A stretch of 64,000 bases of DNA, from positions 44,581-108,580 of the IMG/VR virus record IMGVR_UViG_3300028827_000102; one strand, 5' to 3'. The notes under the pieces were generated by a model, which did not search any database, was not told the DNA's origin, and saw only the letters and a program-made list of their open reading frames with translations. Positions 4,279 to 49,173 of this stretch are shown here, piece by piece. Position 1 is the stretch's first letter. Every line of letters starts with the position of its first letter. A program made the position numbers and the translations under genes. The DNA is from a virus.

Positions 4279-5039
4279 TCTACCTCCTTAGCTGTCGAAT
4301 ACAAAAGGATAAGATCATCTGGCTCTACATCGTATTTCTCTGCTATATCATAAATATCAGCTTCTGTATCAGCCATAAAAGATAAATAAGCTTTCGACAA
4401 GGACTTGCCATCATCACCTATCAACCACTTAAAGAAATAAGTAGCAGCTTTTTTCGTTTTTTCGTTGTTTATGATGCGTTTTATATCTGCTTTTAAAGAC
4501 TCTTTATCCGACAAAGCGGCTAAAAACATAAATGTAGGTATTTCAACAGTTTCTTGAAAATCTACATCTTTTGATACAAGTTTTTCCAACAATGACAACC
4601 AAGCATCATATGTTTCAGGCCATCCTTTGTTAGGAGATTTGACAGCGGAGTGTGTTTTTTCTCTGTCTACAAGCGTTAGATCAGATGACTTCTTTTCTAT
4701 TAATTCTATATATTCTGCTGGGGTACGACTGTCCTTTAATTGTAATCTACCATCAACAATATCGGCATCTAATATTGGAATACCTAGTGTGCGCGCTTCT
4801 GATGCTTTTCCGTCTACATACAACAATAAATACTTTATTTTGTCAGCATATTTATATAAACTATCTTTCTTCGACATATTTGGCAGTATAACTACATTAT
4901 TCCCATCCGACACCAACATCAATGTTTTAGGATCACCGCTGTAGATAGATACACGGTATCCTCTGTTTGCCAATACAATGCGCAGCGCATCTGGACCTAA
5001 AAAAGCAAAGGCTGCCGCTTTAACCGTTTTCGTGTTCAT
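4275..5039 (-). CDS. Hypothetical protein, possible BRCT-like N-terminus
   Basis: 254 residues. The first 100 residues alternate strands and helices. They contain the segment KASEARTLGIPILDADIV, which resembles the K-x-x-x-A-x-x-x-GIPIL segment near the end of BRCT domains. BRCT domains are typical of NAD-dependent ligases and other repair proteins, and this gene sits two genes upstream of the phage ligase. The remaining 150 residues are helical, without motifs I know. It overlaps its downstream neighbour by ATGA. The BRCT assignment is a pattern resemblance only and could be wrong. Confidence 0.5.
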   Translation of the reverse strand: MNTKTVKAAAFAFLGPDALRIVLANRGYRVSIYSGDPKTLMLVSDGNNVVILPNMSKKDSLYKYADKIKYLLLYVDGKASEARTLGIPILDADIVDGRLQLKDSRTPAEYIELIEKKSSDLTLVDREKTHSAVKSPNKGWPETYDAWLSLLEKLVSKDVDFQETVEIPTFMFLAALSDKESLKADIKRIINNEKTKKAATYFFKWLIGDDGKSLSKAYLSFMADTEADIYDIAEKYDVEPDDLILLYSTAKEVE

Positions 5040-11806: not shown

Positions 11807-12889
11807 TCAATCAAAAGTTAGATCGTCATCGTCATCGAAAGAAAAATCATCAAGGTCGTCAGAAGAATCGGAAGAATCATCGTCATCATCATCGAAAGAA
11901 AGGTCATCGTCATCATCATCGAAAGAAAGGTCATCGTCATCATTCTTATTTTTTGCCTTCTTTTTATTGCCCTTATTGCTTTTATTGCTCTTATTGCCTC
12001 TTTTTCTGCTGCTATTTTTCTTAGTATTTGTCTTCTCTTCGTCTACAGTATCTTCGTCATCAAAAGAAATGTCATCAAGATCATCATCATTGTCAGTATC
12101 AAATTCAATATCGTCAGAAGACGTGCCAGACACAGATACAGACACAGGAGCCCCAGTAGCTTTAGCTAAAGCAGCGTAACACCCCAACGAGTGTAACTTC
12201 TGTTCCAACACATCTGAATCTATGGTTTCTATTGAATCAAGCAAATCTACTAGTACGCCTTTATGTACCTTCCCCCCTAGCTTACATACATAAGCATCCT
12301 TATTTTCAATGTATTTCACGGGGAGACGTTTTCCTGTGGATACGAATTTGTATTCTACTCCACTCATATATGGATTGCTGCTCTTTTGTGCTAGCCATGT
12401 GAGCACTACACCACGCTTGTCGTCGTCAACAGAAGAACCTATTGCTTCTGCTATTCCCTTAAGTTCCTTCCACTCCAATACGTTCATATTTACCAGGCCC
12501 CACTGCTCGTCCGCGTTTTTCTTTATATTTGTGATGTGGAAAGCATGAGCCAAGTATCTGAAACTCTGAGGCATACGCAACCACTCAAAATCATTTCTCA
12601 CGTCTATATACTTGTGGAAATTGGCGCATATGGGGCAACCATTATCGACACTGGTAGCCTCAGCTATATCCCAATTTGGACATAAAGTATAGAATCCCTT
12701 TAGATCGTTTGATCCCTTTGGAACAAACTTGACGTAGTGTGTAACTATGGTAGCAAATCCACCTACCAGCCTAATCTGTACCGGCTTTCCAATAGACGGT
12801 CTAGAAAGCAGAGGAAGCATTTCATCCCAACGTGAATCCGACTGCTGCCCAGGAACCTCTCCCATAGAACGGAAACCCTTTTTTCTCAT
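11807..12889 (-). CDS. gp32-like single-stranded DNA-binding protein
   Basis: 360 residues. It should coat ssDNA during replication and recombination. The N-terminal 200 residues include a zinc-type motif (CPNW...C-P-I-C with nearby histidines) in the position expected for T4 gp32-type proteins, and SNPYMSGVEYKF, typical of the core. From about residue 255 the sequence becomes an acidic tail. It carries a basic block (SRKRGNKSNKSNKGNKKKAK) and repeated DDDDLSFDD units with a 27-base DNA period at about 11878-11935. Acidic tails of SSBs recruit partner proteins. The ATG at 12889 has AAGGAGT upstream. The gene precedes recA, and the frame continues past its TGA into a four-cysteine segment. Confidence 0.82.
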   Translation of the reverse strand: MRKKGFRSMGEVPGQQSDSRWDEMLPLLSRPSIGKPVQIRLVGGFATIVTHYVKFVPKGSNDLKGFYTLCPNWDIAEATSVDNGCPICANFHKYIDVRNDFEWLRMPQSFRYLAHAFHITNIKKNADEQWGLVNMNVLEWKELKGIAEAIGSSVDDDKRGVVLTWLAQKSSNPYMSGVEYKFVSTGKRLPVKYIENKDAYVCKLGGKVHKGVLVDLLDSIETIDSDVLEQKLHSLGCYAALAKATGAPVSVSVSGTSSDDIEFDTDNDDDLDDISFDDEDTVDEEKTNTKKNSSRKRGNKSNKSNKGNKKKAKNKNDDDDLSFDDDDDDLSFDDDDDDSSDSSDDLDDFSFDDDDDLTFD

Positions 12890-43619: not shown

Positions 43620-44162
43620 TTACAGGACAGAAGACAGTCTTTGGTAGGTCGAGAGGAAGATATGTTCTGCCCATTTAGGGTTATGGCAGCTAATAATTAC
43701 AATATCTTCATCGGTCATATCATTCAGGTTAGGCAAGTCATAGGCCCAACTATGGGTTTGCATCAGGCTGATAGCTTCTATACGCAGGACCATATCATCG
43801 GCTAATACTATTTTCTTCGCGTCCGCATCGGACAATTTCTCCAACCCAAAGAATTCCAGCATACTTTCCCATATTTCTTTTTCTAGCTTTTTTATCTCTG
43901 GAAACATGGCTTTTACTGGTCTAGGCAAGTCACTAATGTAGGCTTCTGTCGCGTCGTGTAAGAGACCATAGTACGCCAAACGTTTGCCCCACAGGTGTTC
44001 ACACACAGCACTTACGTTTACCGAGTGCTCGGCCACGCTGTAAAATCTTTGGGTGTGTCCGTTGAAACGACAAATTTGGCTAAGAGAATGGGCTATGTCA
44101 TTTAGTCTATAAACTGGATCGCTGAAGTCATACCATCCACTATATACGGCAATATCAGTCAT
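43620..44162 (-). CDS. HD-domain phosphohydrolase (YfbR-like)
   Basis: 180 residues. The metal-binding HD motifs are RFYSVAEHSVNVS and LLHDATEAYISDLPRPVK, followed by a conserved Asp region (IVLADDMVLRIEA). This pattern is found in YfbR-type deoxynucleotide 5'-phosphatases and in many phage proteins annotated as HD hydrolases. It would dephosphorylate dNMPs and so tune nucleotide pools together with the phage dCTP deaminase. It lies on the minus strand in the accessory island, with an eight-base overlap to its upstream neighbour. Confidence 0.83.
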   Translation of the reverse strand: MTDIAVYSGWYDFSDPVYRLNDIAHSLSQICRFNGHTQRFYSVAEHSVNVSAVCEHLWGKRLAYYGLLHDATEAYISDLPRPVKAMFPEIKKLEKEIWESMLEFFGLEKLSDADAKKIVLADDMVLRIEAISLMQTHSWAYDLPNLNDMTDEDIVIISCHNPKWAEHIFLSTYQRLSSVL

Positions 44163-44355
44163 TGTCTTCCAAGCTCCTTAGTACAAGACGATAGGTTCTG
44201 TCTTCTATTACTGTGTCTACGTGTTCGTCGTCTACGTTTTCTCTAGACCATTCCAAGTCTCTCCCGGTGGCTTTCCACCCGTTTTCTGTTTCCTGAATTT
44301 GTATTCGTGTGCTTAGCCACACCTTTCCGCGTTTTACTTTTACTATTCCTTTCAT
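44155..44355 (-). CDS. Small hypothetical protein
   Basis: 66 residues, beta-rich and charged. A good ribosome-binding site (GGAGATTGAAAA) precedes the ATG. It forms a two-gene unit with the HD hydrolase. Function unknown. Confidence 0.55.
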   Translation of the reverse strand: MKGIVKVKRGKVWLSTRIQIQETENGWKATGRDLEWSRENVDDEHVDTVIEDRTYRLVLRSLEDND

Positions 44356-44389
44356 TTTTCAATCTCCTTCTAAAATTACAACGAAGCGG

Positions 44390-44406
44390 ATTAATTTTTA
44401 GTAGAA
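44390..44406 (+). promoter_or_regulatory. Putative late-promoter motif, copy 4
   Basis: The site reads ATTAATTTTTAGTAGAA and ends 13 bases before the ATG of the response-regulator gene, with AAAGGGG immediately following as ribosome-binding site. It sits in a 64-base divergent gap. Confidence 0.55.
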
Positions 44407-44419
44407 AGGGGAAAATTTC

Positions 44420-44953
44420 ATGTGTTATGTTATTCCAGTTTCTGTTTTGTGTATAGAAGATAATTCTGGCGTAGCAGAAGTCATCAAGCAGCTACTTATC
44501 TATTCTAAAGCCAGACTAAAGTACCGCAATGTACCAACACTAAAGATAGCTCTTCGGGAACTAAAGAAGCACAAGTTTGACATAATTTTGTTAGATCTGA
44601 AGCTACCTGATTCTGTTGGTACAGACACGTATCGTGCAATAGCAGAGGCAACGGATTTGCCGGTAATAGTTATTACCGGAACAGCGTCAGAAGAAGAAAG
44701 ACAAAAAATTTTAGAAATGGGGGCAAAGGATTGTATTCGTAAGGATGAAATTACTTCTGACAATTTATGGCGAGCCATTCGATACGTATTGATAGAAAAA
44801 CTCCATGAGGAAGAGATAGCTAATGTAATGAAGGAAATAAAAGAGATAAAGGAACACGTACGTCTGGCCTTTGCCAAGATCCATGCAGTGACAGATCGGT
44901 TAGACAACATCATGCTACCTTTTTCTTCCAACGATGACGCCACGCAGAAATAG
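44420..44953 (+). CDS. Response-regulator receiver-domain protein
   Basis: 177 residues. The CheY-like fold is complete: acidic pair E13-D14 (CIEDN), phospho-acceptor Asp59 (ILLDLKLPDS), threonine 86 (VITGTAS) and lysine 108 (CIRKD). No DNA-binding or enzymatic output domain follows, only a helical, probably coiled-coil tail of about 60 residues. Such a single-domain regulator could take phosphate from host kinases or act as a decoy in host signalling. It stands alone behind a putative late promoter and its 3' end overlaps a convergent gene by 44 bases. I see no partner kinase. Confidence 0.85.
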   Translation: MCYVIPVSVLCIEDNSGVAEVIKQLLIYSKARLKYRNVPTLKIALRELKKHKFDIILLDLKLPDSVGTDTYRAIAEATDLPVIVITGTASEEERQKILEMGAKDCIRKDEITSDNLWRAIRYVLIEKLHEEEIANVMKEIKEIKEHVRLAFAKIHAVTDRLDNIMLPFSSNDDATQK

Positions 44954-46085
44954 GTATGGGCGGTCCTCTAGACGGGCGGGAGCGCATTCTGTAGTCTAAA
45001 AAGGACTGTGGCGGCTCTGTTTCTTCCAAGTGTCGGTATCTGGTTAAAGGTCGGTCGTACAGACTGATACCTTGTCCACTTCTAGCATATTTTTGGATAC
45101 TCTTCCATATTACCGGAAAATAGCGGCTACCATCATAGCCAAATAGGTCACACAACCCAACGCTTAGTATTTTTCGCAAAGGTTCGGCCAATGGAGTACG
45201 GATGAACCACGTTTTAGCCACTCTTCTAGCGCTGGCATAGTCGTAAGCTGGCTCCATTCCTTCTATTTTTGACAGTTTTTTATAGTAGTAGAAAGCCTTT
45301 TTGTACCTTGCATTGCTACGGAGCTTGTCTTCTCTGAAAGCTACGTGAAAGACCATGTAAAACGGGCTTTTGGCTGCGGTATTATTTATTATTTTCTTTA
45401 AGTCTGAGAAACGGACGCTTCTTGTTTGACCTAAGATAGCTTTCAGTCGTTTGTGTCGGCATACTACTTCAATTCGGCATACCATGTCTTCTGGGTTCAT
45501 AAGGTCTGGGTCTACATAGTATTCTCTTCTCTTTTTAAGTGTTTCTTCTTGCTTGTCGTAGATACGTACTGGGCCTTTACCCTTCAGTTTGCCATATCTC
45601 TTCCAGTTTCTATGTCTGGTACCGGTATGAGTTCTTACAAAATGACGGTTAACTAGGGGAAGAAGGTCCGGACGGTTCTCTGGAGTAAGAAAATCAACAA
45701 AGAAATCACATCTTACCATTATTAGTAGGTCCAAAGAAGGACACTTCACTACTCGGTTAATGGCCGCTAACAGTTCTTCCTGTGTTACATAACGTTCTGT
45801 TAATTTTCTTATTCTTATGTAGGCTCTGTCTAGAACACGGGAGTAGTATAATGTTAATGGTGCAAAGTCTTTGTCATACGTGTTCCATACACCCTTGTAC
45901 ATACCTTTCGGGTATATGTTATATACACGGAATATGTCTACTTCCGGATGTAACTTCGTCTTCCGTACAACGTATCCCCCTTTTCTGTAAGAATTACGGT
46001 AAAGCATAGACTTATGGCGTAAAGGAAACCGGTTAAGGTTTACCTCAAAAAGTATGTCGTCTATGCCGGATAAGACTGGTTTCAT
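44910..46085 (-). CDS. Possible rolling-circle-type replication initiator
   Basis: 391 residues from the ATG at 46085; a GTG at 46151 would add 22. The protein is very basic. Segments LIMVRCDFFVDF, VRIYDKQEE and CRIEVVCR follow each other in the manner of replication initiators of the phage gene II/X and Rep_trans groups (strand, then Y-D-K, then an R-x-E strand). No second catalytic tyrosine or HUH motif is obvious, so activity is uncertain. It borders a 370-base intergenic region with repeats that could be an origin. It might instead be an unrelated DNA-binding protein. Neither start has a good ribosome-binding site. Confidence 0.4.
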   Translation of the reverse strand: MKPVLSGIDDILFEVNLNRFPLRHKSMLYRNSYRKGGYVVRKTKLHPEVDIFRVYNIYPKGMYKGVWNTYDKDFAPLTLYYSRVLDRAYIRIRKLTERYVTQEELLAAINRVVKCPSLDLLIMVRCDFFVDFLTPENRPDLLPLVNRHFVRTHTGTRHRNWKRYGKLKGKGPVRIYDKQEETLKKRREYYVDPDLMNPEDMVCRIEVVCRHKRLKAILGQTRSVRFSDLKKIINNTAAKSPFYMVFHVAFREDKLRSNARYKKAFYYYKKLSKIEGMEPAYDYASARRVAKTWFIRTPLAEPLRKILSVGLCDLFGYDGSRYFPVIWKSIQKYARSGQGISLYDRPLTRYRHLEETEPPQSFLDYRMRSRPSRGPPIPISAWRHRWKKKVA

Positions 46086-46323
46086 CACTAAAATACTAAG
46101 CCCGTAGAAGGTACTGATGTAGAGTATACCGGGAGAGAAGGAGGATGTCACTAAAAAACTATTCTAATAACTCTTACGCTTAATCTTAGTGCATAATTAT
46201 GTTTATTATTGATTCCATTAACTTAGTTAATTAAGTCACGGATACACTGAAGTAGGTAGTACGGCTAAATAACGGTGATTTAATAACTACGGATATACAG
46301 AAATACAAATGGAATACGTAGAA

Positions 46324-46400
46324 GGAAGTACGGAAGTAGGGAGTACTAGGAGTATGGAGTGAGGGAGTACTGGGAAAGGAAGTACGGAAGTAGGGAGTAC
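46324..46400 (+). repeat. Iteron-like GGAAGTAC repeats
   Basis: A 23-base sequence beginning GGAAGTACGGAAG occurs identically at 46324-46346 and 46378-46400, 54 bases apart. A partial third copy (GGAAGTACGTAGGGAAG) lies at 46454-46470, and single GGGAGTAC units lie between. Confidence 0.8.
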
Positions 46401-46500
46401 AGGGAAGAGAGTTAGAAGGGTCCATGTTTCCGTAATTACACGGAAAGTTGTAAGGAAGTACGTAGGGAAGGTGACGGAGGGGGGAGGAGGGAAGCCCAGC

Positions 46501-46517
46501 CTTAATTTTTAGAGAGG
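46501..46517 (+). promoter_or_regulatory. Putative late-promoter motif, copy 5 (degenerate)
   Basis: CTTAATTTTTAGAGAGG matches the first 12 positions of the motif exactly and then departs (AGAGG instead of TAGRA), merging with the ribosome-binding site of the gene at 46525. It may be a weak or decayed copy. Confidence 0.35.
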
Positions 46518-46524
46518 TGACTAG

Positions 46525-47298
46525 ATGTCTAAACCAGAGAAAGAGCTTGAGCGTTTGTTGCGTGTTGTACTTCCTGGGACTGAATTTGAGCATCGTGTTT
46601 TTGCGGTGGGTGGATATGTTCGTGATGAGTTACTGGGCGAAGAGGCTCATGATTTAGATGTAGTGGTGGAGATGCAATACGGTGCTCAACGGTTTGGTGA
46701 ATTTCTTGTAGACTTTTTTGGTGACGAAATTGTATTGGGGCCGATACCCCTTAGTTTACGGTATCCGGTATGGCGTGTCAAGTTTGCCGATGACGTATTA
46801 GTCGGTAATAATGTATATGGCACTAAGGGGGCTTATTTAGACATGGCGGACACTCAATCTGTAGTAGACGGTACATACTCTTTATTCGGTCCGCTGAGCG
46901 ATGATTTTCGCAGGCGTGATTTTACCGTAAATATGGTATTTAAGGATCTCACCGATGGTACATTGGTCGATCCTTCTGGTTTGGGTTTGGCTGATATAGA
47001 GCGAGGTATACTACGCACATTACCAAGCTACAATGAGCATGAAGACCTTGTTGCGAACCCAAAGAAGATTCTCAGGGCTATACGTTTTGCACTTAAGTAT
47101 GATTGGGGACTAGAGCCGTCTTTAGTGGAGACGATTAAACAGTCCGAGGACGTCATAAGTAGCATTGATGCTAAAGCGATCCGTAGAGAGCTACGAAAAA
47201 TAAGGGACGATGGCAATTTGACTAAAGCCGTCGGTATGTTTAAGGAGCTTGGTTTATGGGACGCTATACTAAAGACGTTAAGTGCAAGCGAGCACTAA
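46525..47298 (+). CDS. cca: CCA-adding / poly(A) polymerase-type nucleotidyltransferase
   Basis: 257 residues. Class II tRNA nucleotidyltransferase motifs are visible: FAVGGYVRDELLG, HDLDVVV (catalytic D-L-D, residues 43-45), RRDFTVN, VDPSGLGLADIERGILRT and NPKKILRAIRFALKY. The C-terminal body domains are shorter than in bacterial CCA enzymes, which usually exceed 400 residues. It would repair or add CCA ends of tRNA, or add A tails. No tRNA gene occurs in this window. The last six bases (CACTAA) are part of the first 51-bp tandem repeat. Confidence 0.88.
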   Translation: MSKPEKELERLLRVVLPGTEFEHRVFAVGGYVRDELLGEEAHDLDVVVEMQYGAQRFGEFLVDFFGDEIVLGPIPLSLRYPVWRVKFADDVLVGNNVYGTKGAYLDMADTQSVVDGTYSLFGPLSDDFRRRDFTVNMVFKDLTDGTLVDPSGLGLADIERGILRTLPSYNEHEDLVANPKKILRAIRFALKYDWGLEPSLVETIKQSEDVISSIDAKAIRRELRKIRDDGNLTKAVGMFKELGLWDAILKTLSASEH

Positions 47299-47936
47299 AG
47301 CGGACGTTTCTCTTTAGTGGCACCAGACTAAAGGGACAACAGGCACTAAAGCGGACGTTTCTCTTTAGTGGCACCAGACTAAAGGGACAACAGGCACTAA
47401 AGCGGACGTTTCTCTTTAGTGGCTTCTTGTTGTCTTTAGTGGTCTCGTGTCCACCTAAGCGTTATCCGATATACTTCCTTAATGTCACTTCGTATAAGGT
47501 GTATACAGATCGTGTGACTAAAGACGGAATACGGTTTAGGGTACCATACAACGTAGATGCCGATAAGTTTGCTGTTGCTGTAGATCAAAAAGTACGGGAG
47601 CTGGAAACATGTTTGGGAAAAAAGATTCGTAGGGATTGGTTTGCGGTATTTGTTCCAGATGATTGGTATGTGTCTAAGTGCAGTGGTGAGCAGTTGGTTC
47701 CTAGCAAAGCAGACCCTAAATTATGCAGAACGAAGGGATTGGTGCTGCCTCCGGAGTGTGAGTGGGTAATATATCCCAACGATAAGTGTCCTTGTGTGTG
47801 TAATTTTCGTGCGGTTACTCAGGACAATTATTATATAGTAACAGCGCCCAATCTAAAATTGTTTAAGAATGAGTTAGCTAGCATAGTATTGAATAACAGA
47901 AACTTGTGGGTGACAGAGTGGGCGAAGTGTTTATAA
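47256..47936 (+). CDS. Lipoprotein with tandem-repeated signal region
   Basis: 226 residues in the open frame, overlapping the nucleotidyltransferase gene by 43 bases. The N-terminus has three copies of ALKRTFLFSG (period 17 residues). Only the last runs on into a full signal peptide with lipobox (FLLSLVVSC). The mature part of about 160 residues has eight or more cysteines, several in pairs (CPCVC), and an ordered beta-rich core. The ancestral gene probably had one ALKRTFLFSG unit, later multiplied. There is no start codon inside the repeats in this frame, so translation should begin at the ATG at 47256. Function unknown; it is probably exported to the cell surface. Confidence 0.6.
   Translation: MGRYTKDVKCKRALKRTFLFSGTRLKGQQALKRTFLFSGTRLKGQQALKRTFLFSGFLLSLVVSCPPKRYPIYFLNVTSYKVYTDRVTKDGIRFRVPYNVDADKFAVAVDQKVRELETCLGKKIRRDWFAVFVPDDWYVSKCSGEQLVPSKADPKLCRTKGLVLPPECEWVIYPNDKCPCVCNFRAVTQDNYYIVTAPNLKLFKNELASIVLNNRNLWVTEWAKCL
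47293..47421 (+). repeat. 51-bp tandem repeats, each with an inverted repeat
   Basis: Two and a half copies of a 51-base unit start at 47293, 47344 and 47395. Each unit contains CACTAAAG, 11 bases, then CTTTAGTG, a perfect eight-base inverted repeat (arms 47293-47300/47312-47319, 47344-47351/47363-47370, 47395-47402/47414-47421). The period is 17 codons, so the lipoprotein frame is kept. The stop codon of the preceding gene lies in the first arm. Confidence 0.9.
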
Positions 47937-47948
47937 ACGAGGCGAGCG

Positions 47949-48308
47949 ATGTTGGGATCACATGTACTGGTAGATATGTATGGAATATCTAATCATGATA
48001 TGATTGATGACAACACCAAATTATTTTCTCTTTTTAAAGAAGCAATAGATATAAGCGGAGCGACTTACGTGTCTCATAAATTTTCTCCGCAAGGTGTCAG
48101 CGGAGCTATAATTATATCAGAGTCACATTTGACTTGGCATACTTGGCCAGAGCTAAATTTCCTTAGTTTCGATTATTTTATGTGTGGCGATCATGTTCGG
48201 ATCGATATAGCAGTGGATCATATTACCGAAAAATTATGTCCTGAGAAGATAGATAAAAATATATATGTTAGGGGAGCATATTTTCCGTCTGCTGCTATTA
48301 GCGGATAA
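47949..48308 (+). CDS. speD: S-adenosylmethionine decarboxylase (SpeD)
   Basis: 119 residues, the normal size of the short bacterial/archaeal class. The enzyme cleaves itself into two chains and uses the resulting pyruvoyl group to decarboxylate S-adenosylmethionine for spermidine synthesis. The full processing motif is present: GVSGAIIISESHLTWHTWPE with Ser59, His64 and then Cys79 (YFMCGDH). It begins twelve bases after the lipoprotein gene. The phage thus has two SpeD-family genes; this one keeps the standard residues. No spermidine synthase gene is in the window, so the product may feed host enzymes. Confidence 0.88.
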   Translation: MLGSHVLVDMYGISNHDMIDDNTKLFSLFKEAIDISGATYVSHKFSPQGVSGAIIISESHLTWHTWPELNFLSFDYFMCGDHVRIDIAVDHITEKLCPEKIDKNIYVRGAYFPSAAISG

Positions 48309-48921: not shown

Positions 48922-49161
48922 TTGTCTAATTTAACCGAATCAAATAGGAATTTGTTATTATCAGAATTGCGTAGACTTAATTTACGCATGACTGAGCTAG
49001 AGATGCAGCTTACTTCGGTCCGTTCTGATATGGTATCTCTTGAATCTGCTTTTTGTGAACTTAAATCGGCCATGTCTGAAATAGAACAAATAGATGTAAT
49101 AAAATTAGCAATTGCAGCTTTGGAGACAGAAATAAACAAGTTAGTCACCAAACTAACTTAA
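48922..49161 (+). CDS. Small coiled-coil protein, TTG start
   Basis: 79 residues. The TTG at 48922 directly follows the preceding TAA and has GAAGGGA seven bases upstream, so it is the likely start. Leucine heptads throughout indicate a coiled coil. Its TAA lies inside the putative promoter motif at 49157-49173. Function unknown. Confidence 0.55.
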   Translation: MSNLTESNRNLLLSELRRLNLRMTELEMQLTSVRSDMVSLESAFCELKSAMSEIEQIDVIKLAIAALETEINKLVTKLT

Positions 49162-49173
49162 TATTTAGTGGTG
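49157..49173 (+). promoter_or_regulatory. Putative late-promoter motif, copy 6
   Basis: CTTAATATTTAGTGGTG, one of the weaker copies (GTGGTG instead of GTAGRA), 24 bases before the ATG at 49198. TTTAGTGG also occurs inside the tandem repeats at 47293-47421. Confidence 0.4.

Follow-up and report, generated by a model that had tools for sequence, protein, structure and literature searches.

In-frame VNTR-type repeats of bacteria and phages consist of perfect head-to-tail copies inside an open reading frame (ORF), with a period divisible by three. Adjacent imperfect inverted repeats characterize quasi-palindrome template-switch mutations (Ripley model; PMC8604942, PMC7202029), and template switching between such repeats, originally put forward for bacteriophages, is established (PMC8604942). 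Palindromic amphipathic repeat coding elements (PARCEL) are coding repeats that occur in tandem, carry palindromes and are linked to lipoproteins and membrane proteins; the PARCEL unit comprises 25 aa (75 nt), belongs to the DUF285 family and builds protein domains (PMC2996958). Rickettsia palindromic elements (RPE) place palindromic DNA in frame within protein genes; they are selfish palindromes found in ORFs, at assorted positions in many genes (PMC2996958).

The window analysed here is a 64,000-nt stretch, bases 44581–108580 of a virus record totalling 108,580 bp. It carries a perfect tandem array of a 51-bp unit within the gene of a predicted lipoprotein, and the likely explanation is that an intragenic tandem duplication, in frame, took place in the leader region of this phage-carried gene. 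The features of the locus, in window coordinates, are as follows.

46525–47298, + strand: gene of a CCA-adding enzyme / tRNA nucleotidyltransferase (Pfam PolyA_pol, 2.4e-14; phrog_2244, 1.4e-27)
47242–47247, + strand: Shine–Dalgarno sequence AAGGAG, read from the sequence, 8 nt before ATG 47256
47256–47936, + strand: predicted lipoprotein, 226 aa, with a cysteine-rich domain; overlaps the upstream gene by 43 nt
47292–47423, + strand: 51-bp tandem array, 2.6 identical copies, in frame (17 codons, ALKRTFLFSGTRLKGQQ)
47292–47321, + strand: core copy 1, with the inverted repeat CACTAAAG-N11-CTTTAGTG and the stop codon of the upstream gene
47322–47342, + strand: 21-bp spacer 1, ACCAGACTAAAGGGACAACAG, similar to downstream sequence in inverted form
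47343–47372, + strand: core copy 2
47370–47452, + strand: predicted long nested RNA/DNA hairpin of spacer 2, core 3 and downstream sequence
47373–47393, + strand: 21-bp spacer 2, with the same letters as spacer 1
47394–47423, + strand: core copy 3, the sole core continuing into a complete hydrophobic core and lipobox
47406–47450, + strand: hydrophobic core TFLFSGFLLSLVVS and lipobox LVVSC (Cys codon 47448–47450)

TRF places the array at 47292–47423 with a period of 51, 2.6 copies, a 100% match and a score of 264, the top score among the nine TRF rows in the window. The order is core–spacer–core–spacer–core, the unit being composed of a 30-bp core, GCACTAAAGCGGACGTTTCTCTTTAGTGGC, and the 21-bp spacer; the inverted repeat is present in all three cores. 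A perfect array of 132 bp is far beyond chance. The repeat is real and, as its copies are identical, the duplication is probably recent. The first-pass annotation had described about 2.5 copies with a period of exactly 17 codons and a perfect inverted repeat in every copy, in agreement with these data. It had spread the repeat over the whole ORF 47256–47936; the array in fact lies entirely between the start codon and the lipobox. The upstream stop codon, which it had placed in every copy, is a feature of copy 1: the TAA of the CCA-enzyme gene (47296–47298) lies inside the first core only, and the other copies just repeat its letters.

Like VNTR-type repeats, the array consists of perfect head-to-tail copies within an ORF, with a period that is a multiple of three. 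The kind of event is ordinary, but its place, a signal-peptide n-region, is unusual; the array is read from one sequence. The periods of all TRF arrays in the window and in the loci of relatives are divisible by three, as expected if those duplications that keep the frame are the survivors in coding DNA, so in-frame duplications are common here. Other coding duplications in frame are located at 1668–1787 (63 bp × 1.9, 94%) and 11877–11943 (27 bp × 2.5, 100%). The array resembles PARCEL in its tandem, palindrome-bearing coding units in a lipoprotein gene, whereas its unit is 17 aa (51 nt) long and lies in the leader of a protein that lacks a Pfam match; with this period in place of a 25-aa DUF285/TIGR02167-like repeat, PARCEL identity was rejected. 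Palindromic DNA in frame within a protein gene recalls RPE, and a dispersed RPE-like element was also rejected, since the unit is found at one locus rather than several: its sole matches in the 108,580-bp record are the array itself.

The ATG at 47256 is the only plausible start of the lipoprotein ORF. No in-frame ATG, GTG, TTG, CTG, ATT, ATC or ATA follows before TTG 47427, which is too late to serve as a start, as no signal peptide would remain. Being downstream of the only Shine–Dalgarno sequence and usable start codon, the array leaves the start site unchanged; it adds 34 amino acids to the leader. The leader sequence is MGRYTKDVKCKR-ALKRTFLFSGTRLKGQQ-ALKRTFLFSGTRLKGQQ-ALKRTFLFSG-FLLSLVVSC, and the ORF indeed holds the three ALKRTFLFSG segments and the one lipobox (LVVSC, at Cys65) noticed in the first pass. 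In each of copies 1 and 2, a run of only six hydrophobic residues (TFLFSG) gives way to a polar stretch, TRLKGQQ. The final copy alone extends to a 14-residue hydrophobic core with a mean hydropathy of 2.04 and a lipobox, and the 14-residue windows with a mean hydropathy above 1.2 form a single group, at residues 50–67. Since only the last copy reaches a complete hydrophobic core and lipobox, one signal is present. What has been multiplied is the n-region and the first six hydrophobic residues and not, as had been proposed, the complete signal region; the idea of a slippage-prone in-frame repetition upstream of one lipobox stands, with a perfect 51-bp array and a single LVVSC.

The resulting n-region is long and basic, with 15 K/R and one acidic residue among residues 1–50. 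The positive n-region, the hydrophobic core TFLFSGFLLSLVVS and the lipobox ending in Cys are features of a type II signal peptide. The lipobox Cys is usually located about 15–35 residues in (PROSITE PS51257); here it is residue 65 with the array and residue 31 after computed deletion of two units. As Cys65 is not near the N-terminus, the product of ORF 47256–47936 is termed here, from its sequence, a predicted lipoprotein and is not assigned to the class. Its mature domain is cysteine-rich, with DWYVSKCSGEQLVPS and CPCVCN motifs. Three homologues with 44–51% identity were found in viral contigs; each has a single short ordinary signal peptide and lacks the repeat. Cys65 is invariant in the alignment of four homologues, and in one of them (L001) the lipobox Cys is residue 31, matching the collapsed window protein. 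In L002, the lipoprotein homologue is directly preceded by another ORF, at 4474–4947, which carries a lipoprotein-like signal (LLTGGGC) and overlaps the start of the homologue; the arrangement in L003 is similar. Annotated phages, genome contigs, Pfam and PHROGs yielded no match to the lipoprotein, and a PDB sequence search gave one match, MTH0777, which is not significant (E 0.052). The AlphaFold model, built on four sequences, is weak (mean pLDDT 59) and found no match at E <0.001 in fold searches; for these two reasons, no function is claimed from structure.

The gene is located in the head-gene region, which includes terminase (39134), portal (41451), head protease (50941) and major head protein (55300) genes. 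A SpeD-like AdoMet decarboxylase is encoded directly downstream of the lipoprotein gene, at 47949. Five relatives (L010, L012, L013, L014 and L015) retain synteny from terminase through protease, but tblastn found no homologues of the response regulator, CCA-adding enzyme, lipoprotein or AdoMet decarboxylase in them between the portal and the 49198 homologue. Since these syntenic relatives lack the lipoprotein gene, it is accessory in this phage group. With terminase as the query, six distinct loci were found, none of which has the lipoprotein gene in the available stretches, and the CCA-enzyme protein used as a query found no viral relative. An accessory block at 43620–48308 comprises genes for a response-regulator receiver protein, a 413-aa reverse ORF, the CCA-adding enzyme, the lipoprotein and the SpeD-like AdoMet decarboxylase; in its place, the portal gene of the five relatives is followed almost directly by the 48556/49198 homologues. 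The purine-rich intergenic stretch 46320–46470, before the CCA-enzyme gene, contains repeated GGAAGTACGGAAGTAGGGAGTAC-like words.

In reverse complement, the DNA immediately 3′ of the last core aligns with the spacer. The match of ACCAGACTAAAGGGACAACA to ACC--ACTAAA--GACAACA scores 24, a value that 9 of 25,494 overlapping genome windows attain, and the extended arm alignment scores 36, against a maximum of 28 across 25,496 genome windows. Owing to this resemblance, the last copy and the downstream DNA are predicted to fold into a nested hairpin; at 47370–47452 its energy is −36.7 kcal/mol (z −4.85), none of 200 shuffles being as stable, and the wider fold 47280–47460 has a z of −4.6. The duplication may have arisen as follows. 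The ancestral gene would have encoded a single signal peptide, its lipobox Cys located at about residue 31. A two-hop template switch at the quasi-palindrome with arms CACTAAAG/CTTTAGTG, returning at the CACTAAAG arm, would have inserted, next to the first core, a second core together with downstream DNA copied imperfectly in inverted orientation. Unequal pairing of two identical 30-bp cores, through slippage or recombination, may then have added a further unit, selection on the downstream lipoprotein would have preserved the reading frame, and the outcome would be a longer, positively charged cytoplasmic n-region ahead of one predicted functional signal. The locus shares with quasi-palindrome mutations adjacent imperfect inverted repeats, what looks like neighbouring sequence copied in inverted form, and microhomology (CACTAAAG) where the switch returns, whereas the copy here is imperfect, diverged by several indels. 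For that reason, the putative switch is not a clean match, and the inverted copy could instead reflect chance and selection on an RNA hairpin. In exact searches of viral contigs, neither the 29-bp core nor CACTAAAG-N11-CTTTAGTG was found, and a pre-duplication state of this phage's sequence was not found.

It is unlikely, in our estimate, that the hairpin is itself a functional RNA element at the gene junction, tuning translation, mRNA decay (RNase III-type cleavage) or lipoprotein membrane targeting and strengthened by repetition. Both folds are far more stable than shuffles and a hairpin arm includes the stop codon of the CCA-enzyme gene; however, the hairpin lies >100 nt 3′ of the ribosome-binding site, within translated sequence, a terminator-like site was not found, the repeat is absent from homologues, and tandem and inverted duplication by itself inflates both the fold and the count of ACTAAAG boxes. 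These boxes exceed synonymous-codon expectation even with the array collapsed (7 versus about 1.2 expected; none of 20,000 resamplings reaches 7), but the motif was selected post hoc and the core and inverted copy account for three of the seven boxes, so the excess is only a lead. ACTAAAG is also the most locally clustered 7-mer in the window, 13 of its 28 sites in the record being concentrated within about 400 bp around the array, as might be expected of a protein-binding site array (origin, packaging or regulator boxes in both orientations). This is highly improbable, given that the cluster consists mostly of the array and its inverted copy, that the other boxes (47120, 47221, 47268 and 47517) are irregularly spaced in coding frames and that the GC skew turns near 38 kb, not at the array. 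Equally improbable is an assembly artefact hiding a copy number other than 2.6: although the contig is metagenomic and successive copies share 81 bp, near short-read k-mer sizes, a 132-bp array fits within one 150-base read and is resolved by assembly with k >81, and the ORF is open whichever copy number holds.

The first-pass annotation had also suggested phase variation and a late promoter. The period being 17 codons (51 = 3 × 17), a change in copy number never shifts the frame, and frame-based phase variation is excluded. Modulation of the contingency type, in which slippage alters the number of 17-residue units and, with it, export or lipidation efficiency without a frame switch, appears very doubtful. 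The copies are identical, the period is in frame, and the array moves the Cys from 31 to 65, beyond the range of common lipoprotein patterns, whose [MV]-X(0,13)-[RK] type limits the N-terminal extent (PMC13068155); on the other side, no second copy-number state was found, and the unit occurs in no other viral contig in exact searches. Compared with known contingency loci, moreover, 2.6 copies of a 51-bp unit make a weak substrate for slippage. More doubtful still is that the phage tunes export or expression of its accessory lipoprotein through the number of these hairpin-forming n-region units, as a frame-neutral contingency control, although an effect of copy number on export or mRNA structure is possible. 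TTTAGTG had been likened to part of a late-promoter motif. The candidate phage promoter motif TTAATNTTTAG occurs at 44391–44401, 46502–46512 and 49158–49168, ahead of genes 44420, 46525 and 49198 by 22–39 nt; TAATNTTTAG has three occurrences in the window, each 22–39 nt before a gene start. The array contains the TTTAG half of the motif only, its boxes lacking the TTAAT half, and no promoter-like site was found on its + strand; with TAATNTTTAG absent from the array, the promoter reading was rejected. Under the favoured in-frame duplication, the extended n-region is probably tolerated or mildly modulating and not a switch.

The locus neatly illustrates how nested inverted repeats can give rise to tandem duplications that keep the frame of a phage gene. 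With its expanded n-region, it puts the permissible length of a lipoprotein leader to a natural test, and variation of copy number within the population, were it to occur, would represent an unusual, frame-neutral route to tuning export.
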